From: Bradyrhizobium nanningense
GTDB lineage: Bacteria > Pseudomonadota > Alphaproteobacteria > Rhizobiales > Xanthobacteraceae
DNA length: 64,000 bases
Assembly: GCF_004114535.1 (NCBI RefSeq)
Contig: NZ_LBJC01000002.1
Location: forward strand, 186,001 to 250,000
Direction: 5' to 3'
Shown here: positions 57,192-64,000 of the stretch, one piece after another
Layout: every line of letters begins with the position of its first letter
Numbering within the stretch: position 1 is the stretch's first letter
Notes under the pieces: model-generated
What the model saw: only the letters and a program-made list of their open reading frames with translations
What the model was told of the DNA's origin: nothing
The model's database searches: none
Translations under genes and position numbers: made by a program

Positions 57192-57641
57192 ATGATCAAC
57201 CGACGCGACCTGGCTCTTTCGACTCTCGCCGTCTCCGCGCTTGCGCTCACGGCACCGGCGTTCGCCGCCTCGGCGGACGAAGAGGCGGTGGCGAAAAAGG
57301 TCGAAGCCTTCCGCCTCGCCCAGATCGCGGCTGACCCGAAGGCGCTCGGCGCGCTATGCTGGGACGATCTCAGCTACAGCCATTCCAGCGGCAAGGTCGA
57401 GGACAAGGCGACCTTCGTCGCCAACGCCACCGACGGCAAATCGAAATTCCTCTCGATCGAGTACAAGGACCCGACCATCAAGGTCGTCGGCCCCGCAGCA
57501 ATCGTACGCTTCCACTGGATCGCCGAACAGGAGATGGCGGCCGATGGGAAAAAAGTGCCGACTAATCTTCACATCCTGATGAACTGGCAGAAGCAAGGCG
57601 ACGAGTGGAAGCTGCTGTCGCGCGCCGCGACGAAGTTGTGA
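57192..57641 (+). CDS. NTF2-like (SnoaL/DUF4440) exported protein
   Basis: 149 residues from ATG 57192, with AGGAGGAA 5 bases upstream. The signal peptide is about 1-26 (RRDLALSTLAVSALALTAPA, with a twin-Arg motif). The mature part has the NTF2-like cone fold (AEEAVAKKVEAFRLAQIAAD-type helix, then LCWDDLSYSHSSGKVEDKAT, then WKLLSRAATKL). It is periplasmic; the ligand or substrate is unknown. Confidence 0.82.
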   Translation: MINRRDLALSTLAVSALALTAPAFAASADEEAVAKKVEAFRLAQIAADPKALGALCWDDLSYSHSSGKVEDKATFVANATDGKSKFLSIEYKDPTIKVVGPAAIVRFHWIAEQEMAADGKKVPTNLHILMNWQKQGDEWKLLSRAATKL

Positions 57642-57690
57642 CCAATGTCATTCCGGGATGCGCCGAAAGGCGCGCCCGGAATGACATTGG
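57642..57690. repeat. Perfect 16-bp inverted repeat, TCATTCCGGG type
   Basis: CCAATGTCATTCCGGG and CCCGGAATGACATTGG are exact inverted copies with a 17-base loop. It begins immediately after the stop of the NTF2-like gene and shares its arm with the element at 1615-1740. It may also work as a transcription or mRNA end structure. Confidence 0.8.
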
Positions 57691-57759
57691 TCGGCAATTT
57701 CTGCAGCATGATAGATTCCGGATTCGCGCTTCGCGCGCTCCGGATCGACCGGCAGGCGC

Positions 57760-57951
57760 TTACGCCGCCTCCTTCACATCGCCATTCGCGAGCTTGCGCG
57801 CGGCGCGCTCGGCTTCGCGGGCGTTGCGGAAGAGCTGGCCTTCGAGACGGTTGAAGCGAGGGGACGAGGCAAAGAAGCAATAGCCTCCGGAAGAACGAAC
57901 GACGATACCCGCGGTCTGCGAATCGACTTCGATGATGTAGCTGTCCGGCAT
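57760..57951 (-). CDS. Small conserved hypothetical protein
   Basis: 63 residues from ATG 57951. It begins MPDSYIIEVDSQTAGIVVRS and has a central aromatic stretch (GGYCFFASSPRFNRLEGQLF). A basic C-terminal helix follows (NAREAERAARKLANG). This is a small protein type seen in Bradyrhizobium. Function unknown. Confidence 0.65.
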   Translation of the reverse strand: MPDSYIIEVDSQTAGIVVRSSGGYCFFASSPRFNRLEGQLFRNAREAERAARKLANGDVKEAA

Positions 57952-58241
57952 GGTCCGTGGATTCCTCAGTGCGGGCAAATAACGGTGCTCCTGCCCAAAG
58001 GTTCCAGGCATTTGAGGCCGTTTCCACCCCGAATCGACACGCAACTGAGTACGCCGAGACCTCATCCGTTTTATGACTGGTTCTTGGCGAAGCCGCGACG
58101 CGGGAACGCGTCATCTGTCATCATCCGCGAAGCGGACGATCCAATACGCGGCAGCGGCAAGATGTTACACGACCGCTACTGGAATACTGGATTGCCTGCC
58201 TTCGCAGGCAATGACGGTTACACATATAATCAGGCGCGTCG
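57952..58241. other. 290-bp intergenic region with repeat
   Basis: Holds a repeat at about 58116-58220 and the upstream region of the 63-residue gene. No additional gene is evident. Confidence 0.45.
58116..58220. repeat. Interspersed repeat, CATCATCCGCGAAGCGGA type
   Basis: Contains TCATCATCCGCGAAGCGGAC near the left end and TGGATTGCCTGCCTTCGCAG followed by GCAATGACGG at the right end. The right end carries a 7-bp hairpin (TGCCTGC/GCAGGCA). This resembles another Bradyrhizobium intergenic element. Confidence 0.6.
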
Positions 58242-58673
58242 TTACGTCGCGATGACAGGATCGGTCGATCGAACCGCTTGCGGGCGACCGTGTTCGTCGA
58301 TCGAGACGTAGGTGAAATTGCCGTCGGTGACGAGAAACGGATGCTCCTCGCCGCGACGCAGCGCCCACGCTTCCAGATGCACGGTGAGCGAGGTGCGGCC
58401 CACGCGCACGAGATTGGCATAGACCGACACGAGATCGCCGACATAGACCGCTTTGCGAAAATTCATCGCCTCGATCGCGACCGTCACGGTCCGCGACTTC
58501 GCGGCCTTCGAGGCAAACACGCCGCCGCCGACATCCATCTGGCTCAGCAGCCAGCCGCCGAAGATATCGCCATTCGCATTGGTGTCGGCGGGCATCGCCA
58601 ACGTACGGATGCAGAGATCGCCGCTCGGCCCAGTGCCGGAGCTGATAGGGGCGTGGACGTGCGTGTCGGTCAT
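58242..58673 (-). CDS. Acyl-CoA thioesterase (YciA-like hotdog)
   Basis: 143 residues from ATG 58673. Hotdog-fold hydrolase that splits acyl-CoA into acid and CoA. The signature NANGDIFGGWLLSQMD has the catalytic Asp and Gly motif. The second strand pair is RKAVYVGDLVSVYANLVRVG. It lies 80 bp downstream of the CarF-type desaturase on the same strand and could be the last gene of the fatty-acid run. Confidence 0.92.
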   Translation of the reverse strand: MTDTHVHAPISSGTGPSGDLCIRTLAMPADTNANGDIFGGWLLSQMDVGGGVFASKAAKSRTVTVAIEAMNFRKAVYVGDLVSVYANLVRVGRTSLTVHLEAWALRRGEEHPFLVTDGNFTYVSIDEHGRPQAVRSTDPVIAT

Positions 58674-58753
58674 ATGGCAAATCTCCCGCGGCTCTCGCCT
58701 CTCGATACAGAGCCGCGACGCCTCGCGCAACATCGACACGCGACAAGCTTGCG

Positions 58754-59506
58754 CTATCCAATCGGCCGCGGCGCCCCGACCAAGATGCCGGTATCGTTCA
58801 GTTTGCGTTGCCACTCCGCATCGTCGGCCCGCGGCGCGCGTCCGGTCGTTGCCGTTACCAGCCGTTCCAGCCTGCTCCAAAGCCGGAGACGGTCGCATGG
58901 ATAATTGGCCCATCCATTGATGACGCAATAGCGGATGGTGTGGTCACGGTGATGACGCCAATGATGCTCGGGTGAGCAGACCAGATGCAGCCGCTGCGCC
59001 ATGCGCAGGAGCGGCGGGCGGACCGGCCGGTGCGCCAGATTGTGAAAGCTCATGCCAAACAGCATGCAGGTCGCGATCACGAACCAGACGATCATCAGCG
59101 CATAAGTGAGCGCGGAAAGCGGAAACAACGCCGTAACGGCCGCCGCAATTCCGACCATGACGGCGCTCGGTGCCGCACCGAGCGACGCCTGGTCGAGGAA
59201 GTCGTAGAGCAGGACGTGGCTAGGATGGGTGTGATGCTCTCGCGTGATCGCGATGCCGCGGCCGAGCATCTCCTCGTCGAGCCAGGTGTCGACCACCCAA
59301 TGCACCAACCCCGAAAAGAGGTCAGCGAGGAAATACCCGGCCAGAAGCGGCACGATCAGCCACGGCCAGCGCAATCCACCCGCGGAATAACGCCCGACGA
59401 GATAACCTGCGCAGCACAGGATCACGACGACATTGGCCCCGCAGCACAGTCGCGTGATGATGATCTCGCGCAGGGTCGCATGCTTGAAGAACGGGATTGT
59501 CGACAT
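58754..59506 (-). CDS. CarF/PEDS1 (TMEM189/Kua) family lipid desaturase
   Basis: 250 residues with four or so hydrophobic segments (about 17-38, 46-66, 113-133, 136-152). The family's His arrangement is present: HW at 69-70 (LFSGLVHWVVDTW), EHHTHP at 90-95 (His 91, 92, 94), His 97, FHNLAHRP at 154-161, and SPEHHWRHHRDHT at 178-190. GWANYP (198-203) follows, as in human PEDS1. The animal and Myxococcus enzymes convert plasmanyl to plasmenyl (vinyl-ether) lipids with a di-iron centre. Plasmalogen formation here is inference, as no ether-lipid synthesis gene is in the window. It lies 57 bp after the FadJ-type gene on the same strand. Confidence 0.8.
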   Translation of the reverse strand: MSTIPFFKHATLREIIITRLCCGANVVVILCCAGYLVGRYSAGGLRWPWLIVPLLAGYFLADLFSGLVHWVVDTWLDEEMLGRGIAITREHHTHPSHVLLYDFLDQASLGAAPSAVMVGIAAAVTALFPLSALTYALMIVWFVIATCMLFGMSFHNLAHRPVRPPLLRMAQRLHLVCSPEHHWRHHRDHTIRYCVINGWANYPCDRLRLWSRLERLVTATTGRAPRADDAEWQRKLNDTGILVGAPRPIG

Positions 59507-59563
59507 CGGCGATACTCCCTGCGGGCTCCACCACCCATGATAGCATCTTTCGCCGACGGCTCC

Positions 59564-61660
59564 CTATTGCAAACTGTCCCAGCCCGCATCCGGCGCGAAA
59601 CGTCCGCCGAACCTCTCGGCGAGCCCGCGCAAGGTGGACACGACATTCTCCACGCCGCGCGTACGCGCATAGTTCAGCGGACCGCCGCGGAACGGCGCAT
59701 AACCCGTGCCGAAGATCATGGCGCCATCGACCGTATCAGGATCGTCGACGATGCCTTCGCGAAGCGCCGCAACGCAGACATTGGACATCGGCAGCACCAG
59801 GCGGTCGATCAACTGGTCGGTGACGCGCGGGCCGGTCTCCGGCAGCGGCATCTTCTCCGCCTTGCCGTCCTTCCAGGTGTAAAAGCCCTTGCCGGTCTTG
59901 CGGCCGAGCTCGCCCTTGGCGACCTTGTCGCGCAACCAGGCCGGCGTCGGCGGCAGGAGATCGCCGAACTTGGTGCGCAGCATGTCGCCGACGTCGAGGC
60001 AGATGTCGAGCCCGACCTGATCGGCGAGCTCGATCGGCCCCATCGGCATGCCGAACTGCTTGGCCGCAGCGTCGATAAGGCGCTGGTCGATCTTCTCATC
60101 CAACATCACCATGGCTTCCAGCATGTAGGGCGTCAGCGCGCGGTTGACGAGGAAGCCGGGCGAGCTCTTCACAGGCAACGGCAGGCGGTCAATCGCACCG
60201 ACGAAGGCGAGCGCTTGCTTCAGCACCTGTTGGTCGTTGCCGTCGTGACTGACGACTTCGACCAATTGCAGCCGCGATACCGGATTGAAGAAATGCAGGC
60301 CGACCAGCCGCTCCGGCCGCGCCAGCGTCGTTCGCAGATCCTGAAGCGGGATGCTGGACGTGTTGGTCGCCAGGATCGCCCCCGGCTTCATCCGCGGCTC
60401 GAGCCCGGCATAGACTTTCTGCTTGAGCTCGAGCTTTTCCGGCACCGCCTCGATGATGAGATCGGCATTGCGGACGCCCTCCCCGTCCATGTCGGGGACG
60501 AGACGGTCGAGTGCGTCGCGCACCTCGGTCGGCTTGCGGATGATCTTGCCATAGAGCTCGGCGGCGCGCTTCACCGCGCCCGCGATCGGCTCGGCCTTCA
60601 TGTCGGCGAGCGAGACACGCAGCCCCTGCCCCGCACACCAGGCTGCGATATCGCCGCCCATGGCGCCGGCGCCGATGACATGGACGTGCTTGATCGCGTT
60701 GCCGGAGCCTGCCGCCTTCTTCATCTGCTCGCGCAGGAAGAACACGCGGATCAGATTCTGGGCGGTCGGCGTCACCATCAGCCTGGCGAAGGAAGCCTGC
60801 TCGGCGTTCAGCATCGCGGCCTTGCTGGCGCCATGGGTTTCCCAGAGGTCAATCAGCGCATAAGGCGCGGGATAATGCTCGCGGGACGCAGCCTTGGCCG
60901 CCTCCGAGCGCATGCGTTTTGCCAGGAGCCCGCGCACGGGGCCGAAATTGGCTGCGCGCGTCAGGAAACCCGGGCGCGCCCGCTTCAGGCGGCCGAACAG
61001 CGCATCCTTCACCGCGTCCCGAACGTGCCGCTCCTGCGTCACGGTATCGACGAGGCCGATCGACTTGGCGCGGCGCGCATCGATGGTGCGGCCGGTCAGC
61101 ATCAAGGCCATCGACTGGGTCGGGTTGACCAGCGCGGTGAACCGCGCGGTACCGCCGAGGCCGGGATGCAGACCGAGCATCACCTCCGGGAAGCCGAAGC
61201 GCGCGCCGTCGATCGCGATGCGCGATTGGCAGGCCAGCGCAACCTCGAGCCCACCGCCGAGGCAGAAGCCGTGGATCACCGCGACCGTCGGCAGCTTCAA
61301 CGCTTCCAGATGGTCGATCACGGCGTGCGCGGCGCGGATACGGGTCTCGACCATGTCCGGATCGGACGCGCCACGGAATTCGTTGACGTCGGCACCCGCG
61401 ATGAAGCCCGACGGCTTTGCGGAGCGGATCACGAGGCCGGCCGGACGCTCGGTCTCGATCGCCGCGAGCACGGCGTCGAACTCCTCCATCACGTCGGAGG
61501 ACAGCGTGTTGGCGCTTGCGTCAGTGCGGTCGAACAGCAGCCAGGCAACGCCATCGGCATCGCGCGTCAGCTTGAAGTGCTTGTACGGACTGTCCGTCGC
61601 GGGCTTGGGCCCGAGTTCAAGGACGCGGTCGCCAAGCGCGGTCATGATCTTGGAATCCAT
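59564..61660 (-). CDS. Fatty acid beta-oxidation multifunctional enzyme (FadJ/FadB type)
   Basis: 698 residues from ATG 61660. The enoyl-CoA hydratase domain (about 10-190) has SGFIAGADVNEFRG and a GFCLGGGLEVALAC oxyanion region. The NAD-binding domain of 3-hydroxyacyl-CoA dehydrogenase starts near 320 (VIGAGAMGGDIAAWCAGQG). The C-terminal dehydrogenase domain contains NRALTPYMLEAMVMLDE. It catalyses hydration then oxidation of enoyl-CoA. The start lies 2 bp after the thiolase stop. Confidence 0.93.
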   Translation of the reverse strand: MDSKIMTALGDRVLELGPKPATDSPYKHFKLTRDADGVAWLLFDRTDASANTLSSDVMEEFDAVLAAIETERPAGLVIRSAKPSGFIAGADVNEFRGASDPDMVETRIRAAHAVIDHLEALKLPTVAVIHGFCLGGGLEVALACQSRIAIDGARFGFPEVMLGLHPGLGGTARFTALVNPTQSMALMLTGRTIDARRAKSIGLVDTVTQERHVRDAVKDALFGRLKRARPGFLTRAANFGPVRGLLAKRMRSEAAKAASREHYPAPYALIDLWETHGASKAAMLNAEQASFARLMVTPTAQNLIRVFFLREQMKKAAGSGNAIKHVHVIGAGAMGGDIAAWCAGQGLRVSLADMKAEPIAGAVKRAAELYGKIIRKPTEVRDALDRLVPDMDGEGVRNADLIIEAVPEKLELKQKVYAGLEPRMKPGAILATNTSSIPLQDLRTTLARPERLVGLHFFNPVSRLQLVEVVSHDGNDQQVLKQALAFVGAIDRLPLPVKSSPGFLVNRALTPYMLEAMVMLDEKIDQRLIDAAAKQFGMPMGPIELADQVGLDICLDVGDMLRTKFGDLLPPTPAWLRDKVAKGELGRKTGKGFYTWKDGKAEKMPLPETGPRVTDQLIDRLVLPMSNVCVAALREGIVDDPDTVDGAMIFGTGYAPFRGGPLNYARTRGVENVVSTLRGLAERFGGRFAPDAGWDSLQ

Positions 61661-61662
61661 GG

Positions 61663-62946
61663 TCACACCGCCTCGATCAGCATGGCCCCGCCAAGCCCGC
61701 CACCGATGCATTCGGTGGCCACACCACGGCGCGTACCGAGCCGCTTCATCGCGTTGACGAGATGCAGCACGATGCGGTTGCCGGAGGTGCCGACGGGATG
61801 ACCGAGCGAGATCGCACCGCCATCGACGTTGAGCTTGTCACGGTCGATCTCGCCGGCGGCGCCCTCGAGTCCCAAAATTTCGCGGCAGAATTTATCGTCG
61901 TTCCAGGCAGCCAAGCAGCCGAGCACTTGCGTGGCGAACGCCTCGTTCAGCTCCCAGGTCTCGACGTCCTTGATAGTAAGGCCATTGCGCTGGAGCAGCG
62001 ACGTCGCTGACATCACCGGACCGAGGCCCATGATGCTGGGATCGAGCGCCGCCCAGTTGCTGTCGACGATCGCGGCCTTCGGCGTGAGCTTGTGTTTTGC
62101 GACCGCGGCGTCGGAAGCCAGGATCACCCAGGAGGCGCCGTCGGTGATCTGCGAGGAATTGCCGGCGGTGACCTGGCCCCAGGGGCGCTCGAACACCGGC
62201 TTCAGCTTTGCCAGCGTCTCGGCCGTCGAGTCCGGGCGCACGCCGTCATCGTGGTCGAAGAACTTGCCGTCGCGCGAGAACGCGGTCTCGACTTCGCCTT
62301 TCAGATAGCCCGCGCCTTGCGCATGCGCGAGCCGGCGATGGCTCTCGGCGGCATAGGCATCGGACTGCGCCCGCGTAATGCCGAAGAGATGACCGACGAC
62401 CTCGGCGGTCTGCCCCATGTTCAGGTCGGTGACGGGATCGGTCAGCCCGCGTTCCAGGCCGATGATCGGCTTGAGATAGCGGGGGCGGAGCCTGAAGGCC
62501 GCGGCGAGCTTCGCGGCCACGCCCTTGCCGGTGGCGAGGCCGGCGAACCAGCGCACACCCGAATTCGACCAGACCAGCGGCGCGTGGCTCAACGCCTCGG
62601 TGCCGCCGGCGAGGATCATGTCGGCATGGCCTTCGCGAATGTAGCGATAGGCGGTGTCGATCGACTGCATGCCGGAGCCGCAATTGATCTGCACGGTGAA
62701 GGCGACCATGTCCTCGCCCATGCCGAGCCGGAGCGCGGCAACGCGGGCCGGATTCATCTCGTCCGCAATCACGTTGACGCAGCCGAGAATGACCTGGTCG
62801 AAGCTATCGGGCGCAAACGGCTGGCGCGCCAACAGCGGCCGGCCGCATTGCACGGCGAGATCGACCGGCGTGAACGGTCCTGGCCCCGAGCGTGCCTTCA
62901 GAAACGGCGTCCGGCTGCCGTCGACGATGAATACCGGTCGTGCCAT
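61663..62946 (-). CDS. Acetyl-CoA C-acyltransferase (FadI-type thiolase)
   Basis: 427-residue thiolase that cleaves 3-ketoacyl-CoA with CoA. The nucleophile is Cys89 in INCGSGMQ. His and second Cys motifs are GHPVGTSGNR and CIGGGLGGAML. The length fits the FadI group and its partner is the FadJ-type gene. It is translationally coupled to fadE (TGATG overlap). Confidence 0.94.
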   Translation of the reverse strand: MARPVFIVDGSRTPFLKARSGPGPFTPVDLAVQCGRPLLARQPFAPDSFDQVILGCVNVIADEMNPARVAALRLGMGEDMVAFTVQINCGSGMQSIDTAYRYIREGHADMILAGGTEALSHAPLVWSNSGVRWFAGLATGKGVAAKLAAAFRLRPRYLKPIIGLERGLTDPVTDLNMGQTAEVVGHLFGITRAQSDAYAAESHRRLAHAQGAGYLKGEVETAFSRDGKFFDHDDGVRPDSTAETLAKLKPVFERPWGQVTAGNSSQITDGASWVILASDAAVAKHKLTPKAAIVDSNWAALDPSIMGLGPVMSATSLLQRNGLTIKDVETWELNEAFATQVLGCLAAWNDDKFCREILGLEGAAGEIDRDKLNVDGGAISLGHPVGTSGNRIVLHLVNAMKRLGTRRGVATECIGGGLGGAMLIEAV

Positions 62947-64000
62947 CAGCCCGTCGCCCTCTGTTCACCGAGTTCCTGGAAGAACTGATGCACATTGACG
63001 GTTTTCTTGTAAATCGGCGACAGCGCCTCCGGGGCAAAATCGTCGACCTCGATCACGTCTTTGACGGCCTGATGGGCCGCGGCAAGCTGCTCGCCTTCGG
63101 CCTGCGTGATCACGCCCTTGGCGACCGCATCATTCCAGTCGCGCAGCTGCGCGGCGCGCATGCGCTTGGCGATCGCATCGCTGCCGGTGGCCAGCATAAA
63201 GGCGCGCTCCAACCGGGCAAAGCCGCCATCGTCCTCGACATGGGCCAGATCCGGCGTCAGACGCTCACGCGCCGCCGAGGGCTCCAGCACGATGCCCGCG
63301 CATTGATGCACGACGCGGTCGGACGGGCCGAGCACGCGGGCACCGAACGGCTGGACCACCAGCTTGAGAAACATTGCGACGAAGCGATTGGGCAGGTTGG
63401 CGAGAATTTCGGCGAGCCGGTTCTCGATCGTCCTGAAGCCGCTGGCCATGCACCATTCCAGCGCGGCAAAGTCCTCCTTCTGCCGGCCCTCGTCGTGCCA
63501 GCGCTTCAGCGCCGCGGAGAGCAGATACAGCTCGGACAGGATGTCGCCGAAGCGCGCCGACAGCATCTCCTTGCGCTTGAGCGCGCCGCCGAGCGTCAGC
63601 AGCGCCATGTCGGCGCAGAGCGCAAACGCCGCCGCATAGCGCGAGAGCTGGCGATAGAACGGCGTGGCGTCGCCCGCATCAGGCGCAAGCGCGAAGGCGC
63701 CAAAAGTCCAGCTCCGGCCGATGGCGCGAAACAGCGTCCGGAAGCTGTGGCCGACATGCTTCCAGAAGGCTTTGTCGAACGCGGTGAGGCCACGCTCGCG
63801 ATCGGCGTCGGCGAGCGCGTTCATCTCGTCGAGCAGATAGGGATGCGCGCGGATCGCGCCCTGCCCGAACACGATGAGATTGCGCGTCAGGATGTTGGCA
63901 CCCTCCACCGTAATCCCGACCGGCACGGCGCGGTGCAGATTGCCAAGATAGTTTTGCGGACCATCGATCACGGCCTTGCCGCCATGGATGTCCATGGCAT
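62946..64000 (-). CDS. fadE: Acyl-CoA dehydrogenase FadE, C-terminal part
   Basis: The last about 350 residues of a FadE-type acyl-CoA dehydrogenase; the N terminus is beyond the window. Seen: GGKAVIDGPQNYLGNLHRAV followed by PVGITVEGANILTRNLIVFG, the catalytic-glutamate region of FadE (VEGAN). A C-terminal DUF1974 domain (about the last 280 residues) is typical of the about 760-815 residue E. coli FadE. First step of beta-oxidation, at the inner membrane. It heads the visible part of the run. Confidence 0.92.
   Translation of the reverse strand, partial: AMDIHGGKAVIDGPQNYLGNLHRAVPVGITVEGANILTRNLIVFGQGAIRAHPYLLDEMNALADADRERGLTAFDKAFWKHVGHSFRTLFRAIGRSWTFGAFALAPDAGDATPFYRQLSRYAAAFALCADMALLTLGGALKRKEMLSARFGDILSELYLLSAALKRWHDEGRQKEDFAALEWCMASGFRTIENRLAEILANLPNRFVAMFLKLVVQPFGARVLGPSDRVVHQCAGIVLEPSAARERLTPDLAHVEDDGGFARLERAFMLATGSDAIAKRMRAAQLRDWNDAVAKGVITQAEGEQLAAAHQAVKDVIEVDDFAPEALSPIYKKTVNVHQFFQELGEQRATG

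Follow-up and report, generated by a model that had tools for sequence, protein, structure and literature searches.

The minus-strand gene at 58754..59506 (ATG at 59506, stop at 58754-58756) of a 64,000-nucleotide stretch of Bradyrhizobium nanningense DNA (contig NZ_LBJC01000002.1, positions 186,001 to 250,000; hereafter the window) encodes a 250-residue lipid desaturase of the Pfam family PF10520. We conclude that it is probably an acyl-lipid di-iron desaturase or a related oxidase and not the plasmanylethanolamine desaturase PEDS1; the negative half of that statement, taken alone, can be made with more confidence than the whole. A first-pass annotation had described a CarF/PEDS1-type desaturase, indicating either vinyl-ether lipids or a new substrate for this family, and the second option is favoured here. 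We propose that a four-helix membrane enzyme with a histidine-bound di-iron centre would use O2 and an electron donor to desaturate an ester-linked acyl chain of a membrane lipid or, with lower probability, an acyl-CoA. In Bradyrhizobium its gene is an optional cassette within a fadEAJ–thioesterase run, so that it is probably expressed during fatty-acid breakdown. The best reading of the family is that, besides CarF/PEDS1 and probably plant FAD4, PF10520 holds a third subfamily that includes this protein and is marked by loss of the phenylalanine at mouse PEDS1 position F118 and mostly by tyrosine at position H131. The study that identified PEDS1 reportedly assigned no function to the CarF-like proteins of Alphaproteobacteria. 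These subfamily marks, together with a methyltransferase found in a sister group, give a concrete handle on that function, and study of the chemistry could bring to light a new modification of Bradyrhizobium membrane lipids.

A PF10520 enzyme with an intact metal site

The match to PF10520 covers the whole model (positions 1-175 of 175) with 165.9 bits against a cut-off of 26.4 (E 1.2e-48), and no other protein of the 8.29-Mb genome matches the family. All motifs that the first-pass annotation had cited, i.e. HW, EHHTHP, FHNLAHRP, SPEHHWRHHRDHT, and GWANYP, are present exactly in the 250-residue open reading frame (ORF). The catalytic histidines are residues 69, 91, 92, 155, 159, 182, 185, and 186, and the essential aspartate is Asp73 (mouse Asp100); mouse residue numbers, here and below, were transferred using the spacing given in the literature, as the alignment does not include the mouse sequence. 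Two studies describe the eight histidines as essential in mouse PEDS1 (PMC7149458, PMC8960569). Loss of an essential histidine had been named as grounds for discarding the family assignment, and the alignment reveals no such loss: the eight histidines and the Asp100 equivalent are kept in 28 of 28 rows, window protein included.

An AlphaFold2 model built from the same alignment (mean predicted local distance difference test score 88.7) contains four long helices, the hydropathy profile has four peaks, and the ligands lie near helix ends in the predicted secondary structure. Among solved folds, the model comes closest to the Scs7p fatty-acid hydroxylase domain (entries 4zr0 and 4zr1), with Z 7.3 over 178 and 183 aligned residues, compared to 4.4 for the next entry. 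Stearoyl-CoA desaturase is not among the best 50 fold entries, with which a shared fold is still compatible. Searching by sequence for solved relatives returned none for the single protein and, for the alignment profile, three matches no better than chance (E 0.19 or higher). As a prediction from sequence, a membrane di-metal lipid oxidase is well supported, and membership of PF10520 suggests that the reaction would be a desaturation.

Scs7p is likewise a membrane di-metal enzyme, and the ligands are common to di-iron membrane desaturases and hydroxylases. Since Scs7p, the closest solved fold, is a hydroxylase, the window protein could instead hydroxylate or otherwise oxidize an acyl chain or another lipid, e.g. 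a hopanoid or a sphingoid base. The fold match is weak, however (Foldseek E 0.44, 10% identity over the alignment, and a different family), and a Z below 8 may reflect only a common arrangement, a weakness that also detracts from our own assignment. To our knowledge, all characterised PF10520 enzymes desaturate, and the CMAS-type neighbour of the sister group described below suggests a double bond. We thus regard hydroxylation as rather improbable and retain an acyl-lipid desaturase as the preferred reading.

Residues, phylogeny, and gene content probably set the protein apart from PEDS1

In the window protein, mouse F118 corresponds to Thr88, and mouse H131 (CarF H113), a ninth histidine specific to PEDS1, to Tyr101. 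Mutation of F118 in mouse PEDS1 leaves 6% of the activity (PMC8960569). The F118 position holds phenylalanine in 10 of 10 rows with a PEDS1 signature (Myxococcales and genomes from the phylum of Nocardia) and in 0 of the 18 rows of the window protein's clade. At the H131 position, the clade has tyrosine in 15 rows, histidine in two, and phenylalanine in one, compared to histidine in seven, asparagine in two, and arginine in one of the PEDS1-signature rows. As these rows were chosen by eye with a motif that includes the phenylalanine, the F118 contrast is partly circular, and the tree therefore serves as the independent test. In a tree of 45 rows, which contained neither Myxococcus xanthus CarF nor any animal or plant protein, the window protein falls within a 26-row clade (support 100/100, branch 1.42) with no PEDS1-signature row inside it. 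In addition to the circularity, several features of the sequences speak against a clean separation. A weakly supported node (63/78) places the PEDS1-signature row L092 beside the clade; PEDS1-signature rows as a whole do not form one clade, and several long branches were flagged in the tree; and the C-terminal 'TG..PRADD..W' presumably resembles that of animal PEDS1, a protein that is not in the alignment.

The CarF model NF045946 is the sole NCBIfam match of the window protein at E 0.001, and its 103.8 bits do not reach the cut-off of 500. Two PEDS1-signature Myxococcales proteins score 268.6 (a partial protein) and 280.0, also below 500, so the cut-off is strict. According to PMC9131029, M. 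xanthus carF was not complemented by an alphaproteobacterial homologue, and homologues from Alphaproteobacteria are without CarF H113. A figure legend there indicates that the homologue of B. diazoefficiens was tested; this tested protein is likely an orthologue of the window protein.

For the vinyl-ether lipids proposed in the first-pass annotation, no counterpart was found in the gene content examined. Among the eight FAD-oxidase_C (PF02913) proteins of the window genome, no AGPS was found, other ether-lipid routes remaining possible, and none of 4 Bradyrhizobium genomes gave a match to the FAR C-terminal domain (PF03015). In the PDB, the best matches of seven of the eight are D-lactate dehydrogenase, glycolate oxidase, or 3pm9 (a 'putative oxidoreductase') followed by D-2-hydroxyglutarate dehydrogenase. 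These matches span nearly the whole chain, whereas AGPS matches the proteins in the N-terminal part only and with far lower scores, and L097 has no AGPS match at E 1e-15. The eighth is nearest to the YdiJ model, below its cut-off. The positive control for PF03015 was weak, with 34.4 against a cut-off of 35.4 in a PEDS1-signature Myxococcales genome, within a 1682-residue frame.

The window protein shares with CarF and PEDS1 (TMEM189) the PF10520 domain, the eight catalytic histidines, the essential aspartate, and the four-helix membrane architecture; CarF is its only NCBIfam model, and aerobic relatives in the family make plasmalogens. It could on these grounds be a plasmanylethanolamine desaturase that forms the vinyl ether of alkyl-ether lipids made or taken up by Bradyrhizobium. 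The replacement of both F118 and H131, the separate clade, a CarF score lower than those of the Myxococcales proteins, the reported inactivity of an alphaproteobacterial homologue in M. xanthus, and the failure to find the ether-lipid genes sought (AGPS and the FAR C-terminal domain) nevertheless rule this out as the leading reading and make it highly improbable. The gene is probably not plasmalogen-making, and the label 'plasmanyl desaturase' from the first pass is not supported; if the acyl-lipid reading is true, 'plasmalogen desaturase' is the wrong name for these genes.

A second alternative is a FAD4-type enzyme, i.e. a delta-3-trans acyl desaturase, with FadJ helping to recycle the product; the FadJ family can show enoyl-CoA isomerase activity. 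FAD4, the plant delta-3-trans phosphatidylglycerol desaturase, also belongs to PF10520, has the eight histidines, and is without H131, and its substrate agrees with the acyl-lipid theme of the sister group. Published trees in two reviews (PMC9131029, PMC8156234) group the plant proteins with the alphaproteobacterial homologues. However, F118, given as fully conserved in PEDS1 and FAD4 in PMC8960569, is lost to threonine here, and H131, usually arginine in plants according to PMC9131029, is tyrosine. Plant sequences enter this comparison by published description only, our tree holding none. We consider a FAD4-type activity unlikely, and a distinct acyl-lipid subfamily remains the reading that we prefer.

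A CMAS-type methyltransferase accompanies the sister group

At E 1e-4, the FadE, FadA, FadJ, and thioesterase of Bradyrhizobium have no match in any of the 14 loci outside the genus (L079-L092). In the sister group, which consists of Proteobacteria metagenome-assembled genomes (MAGs; L080, L083), Neomarinimicrobiota (L082), Kribbella (L084), Nocardia (L085, L089, L090), and a Pseudonocardiales MAG (L088), a CMAS-type fatty-acyl methyltransferase of one kind is found nearby in 8 of 8 loci. It was identified by Pfam in L080, L083, and L085 and by tblastn in the other loci, and the methyltransferases of different lineages are 47.3-60.6% identical. The gene lies downstream on the same strand in seven of the eight loci and is divergent in L088; it directly neighbours the desaturase gene in L082, L083, L085, L089, and L090, and there is a thioesterase-like match in between in L084 and three ORFs in L080. 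The clade of the eight CMAS-linked rows has a support of 92/93, below the starred level. No CMAS gene was found beside the Bradyrhizobium copies, L079, L081, or four PEDS1-signature Myxococcales loci, nor in the flanking 1.5 kb of L106-L118; contig ends shortened several of the flanks searched, those of L087 and L081 almost at the gene.

The CMAS family, which includes CFA synthase, acts on acyl double bonds of phospholipids, and for this reason the desaturase of the sister group probably makes an acyl double bond in a phospholipid. By extension, we infer an acyl-lipid substrate for the Bradyrhizobium protein. This step is countered by the methyltransferase itself, a close relative of which was not found in 8 of 8 Bradyrhizobium genomes (the strongest listed matches being 28-30% identical and none above 31%), and the message of the sister group may not be transferable. 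A broader proposal, which we put forward tentatively, is that the third subfamily spans Alphaproteobacteria, Actinomycetota, and Neomarinimicrobiota and that the desaturase and its dedicated CMAS could form a two-step lipid-tailoring module, in which a double bond near the head group, as with PEDS1 and FAD4, would be methylated or cyclopropanated to give an undescribed lipid; Bradyrhizobium would then have a stand-alone version tied to fatty-acid breakdown. Among the papers listed by searches of an open-access collection, none besides the CarF reviews dealt with the CMAS partner or with what the Bradyrhizobium gene does.

As a possible precedent, the UfaM/UfaD pathway of furan fatty acids was compared and rejected. 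It is alike in idea only, pairing an acyl-lipid desaturase with a fatty-acyl methylase dependent on S-adenosylmethionine. UfaD, as described in PMC7380195, resembles phytoene desaturases with a predicted NAD/FAD domain and is not a PF10520 protein, and the eight Bradyrhizobium genomes yielded no methyltransferase of the sister-group type.

The Nocardia loci (L085:5908-10939, L089, and L090) combine the PF10520 desaturase and CMAS with a 239-residue protein without a Pfam match and a 4HBT_3 thioesterase. A class-III aminotransferase is added in L085, a P450 and an iron-type alcohol dehydrogenase upstream in L090, and a fatty-acid desaturase upstream of the group in L089. The group has the appearance of a lipid or lipoamine pathway that has not been described before. 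In 119 genomes from the phylum of Nocardia, searching with a second alignment matched three genomes already seen and none new. Besides Nocardia, PF10520 occurs in 12 of 296 sampled genomes of this phylum, and all ten of the proteins examined from these (L106-L115) carry PEDS1-signature-like motifs with phenylalanine at the F118 place. Reviews name only myxobacteria, Leptospira, and Alphaproteobacteria for this family; it is possible that the L106-L115 genomes are further aerobic plasmalogen makers. In Rhodospirillales URHD0017 (L079:3468-6723), the gene for a 44% identical relative runs divergently from those for a luciferase-like monooxygenase and an acyl-CoA dehydrogenase-like protein.

An optional cassette in the Bradyrhizobium beta-oxidation run

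The PF10520 gene is present in 11 of 117 sampled Bradyrhizobium genomes and absent from the other 106. Across the family sample, it was found in 2 of 248 genomes, both Bradyrhizobium, and in no other genus (47 genera sampled), and across the class sample a match over the cut-off was found in 5 of 385 genomes, window genome included. A search of PLSDB at E 1e-5 gave no plasmid copy. The slot between fadJ and the thioesterase gene holds the desaturase in 17 of 17 distinct Bradyrhizobium copies (11 plus 6), always in the same five-gene order, so the arrangement is not due to chance. Where the gene is absent, fadJ directly adjoins the thioesterase in 39 of 42 loci examined: in all 22 loci with the most similar thioesterases and in 17 of a further 20, the remainder being one locus with a 605-bp spacer holding other ORFs and two without fadJ in the fetched stretch. 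The thioesterase is matched in 114 of the 117 Bradyrhizobium genomes, in one of them (G074) at just 32% identity. The beta-oxidation run is a common Bradyrhizobium operon into which the desaturase is optionally fitted. One locus that lacks the gene (L119:940-1524) has roughly 600 bp carrying other small ORFs in the gap from fadJ to the thioesterase, and different inserts may thus be accommodated there.

This distribution also has a side that does not favour our proposal: the operon usually occurs without the desaturase gene, which most sampled Bradyrhizobium do not carry, and the fad setting may be only a landing site. A conserved functional tie to beta-oxidation is weakened by the 14 loci of other genera without fad matches and by the many Bradyrhizobium genomes without the gene. 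The gene order noted at the first pass is real, but as a sign of a role in beta-oxidation it carries less weight than it first seems to.

A quick fadJ tree with 17 carriers and 40 non-carriers requires nine changes in the presence of the gene, which suggests that losses or recombinational exchange are frequent. The protein tree of the carriers agrees by eye with the fadJ tree only at the deep split of L010 and L076 from the rest. The desaturase is under purifying selection, with a median ratio of nonsynonymous to synonymous substitution rates (dN/dS) of 0.226 compared to 0.061-0.143 for its neighbours, and the protein is thus maintained. These medians comprise 78 pairs from 13 sequences; 15 were taken, but the medians omit the divergent L026 and L076; L018 and L027 were not taken. 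As the median dN is 0.071 for the desaturase and 0.068 for the thioesterase, a lower dS accounts in part for the higher ratio. Loss of function is ruled out by this ratio together with the retention of all histidines. In L018 (MAG G016), tblastn reads fadJ in two frames, so there is a frameshift or an assembly error.

The locus and its neighbours

The order on the minus strand is fadE, fadA, fadJ, desaturase, and thioesterase. The FadE-type acyl-CoA dehydrogenase is represented by its C-terminal part (62946..64000), the gene extending past the window edge; in L017, FadE has 759 residues counted from the first methionine of its frame. The FadA-type thiolase (61663..62946) is a PRK08170 equivalog, above the cut-off. 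The FadJ-type 3-hydroxyacyl-CoA dehydrogenase/enoyl-CoA hydratase occupies the ORF 59564..61711, and its true start is probably about 13-15 codons within this ORF, most relatives aligning from residue 14. The 57-bp junction between fadJ and the desaturase (59507..59563, minus strand) is the slot where fadJ meets the thioesterase in most desaturase-free loci examined. The YciA-type acyl-CoA thioesterase (4HBT, 142 residues) lies at 58242..58670; the matches of its relatives begin at or after the ATG at 58670 and not at the TTG start that would give 228 residues.

On these points the first-pass annotation was accurate in its alphaproteobacterial host and co-directional beta-oxidation context, and in its gene order, single strand, and 57-bp gap to the FadJ-type gene. 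Its gap to the thioesterase, given as 80 bp, is 83 bp if translation starts at the ATG at 58670. The stretch 57600-59900 yielded no terminator-like site, which makes co-transcription plausible.

Behind the thioesterase, a minus-strand ORF of 101 residues (57760..58065) without a Pfam match has relatives in the same place by tblastn in 30 of 30 loci of one set, 13 of 15 Bradyrhizobium loci of a second, and 12 of 20 loci of a third. A perfect short inverted repeat at 58192-58211 (TTGCCTGC, a 4-base loop, and GCAGGCAA), also behind the thioesterase, is possibly a dispersed intergenic repeat.

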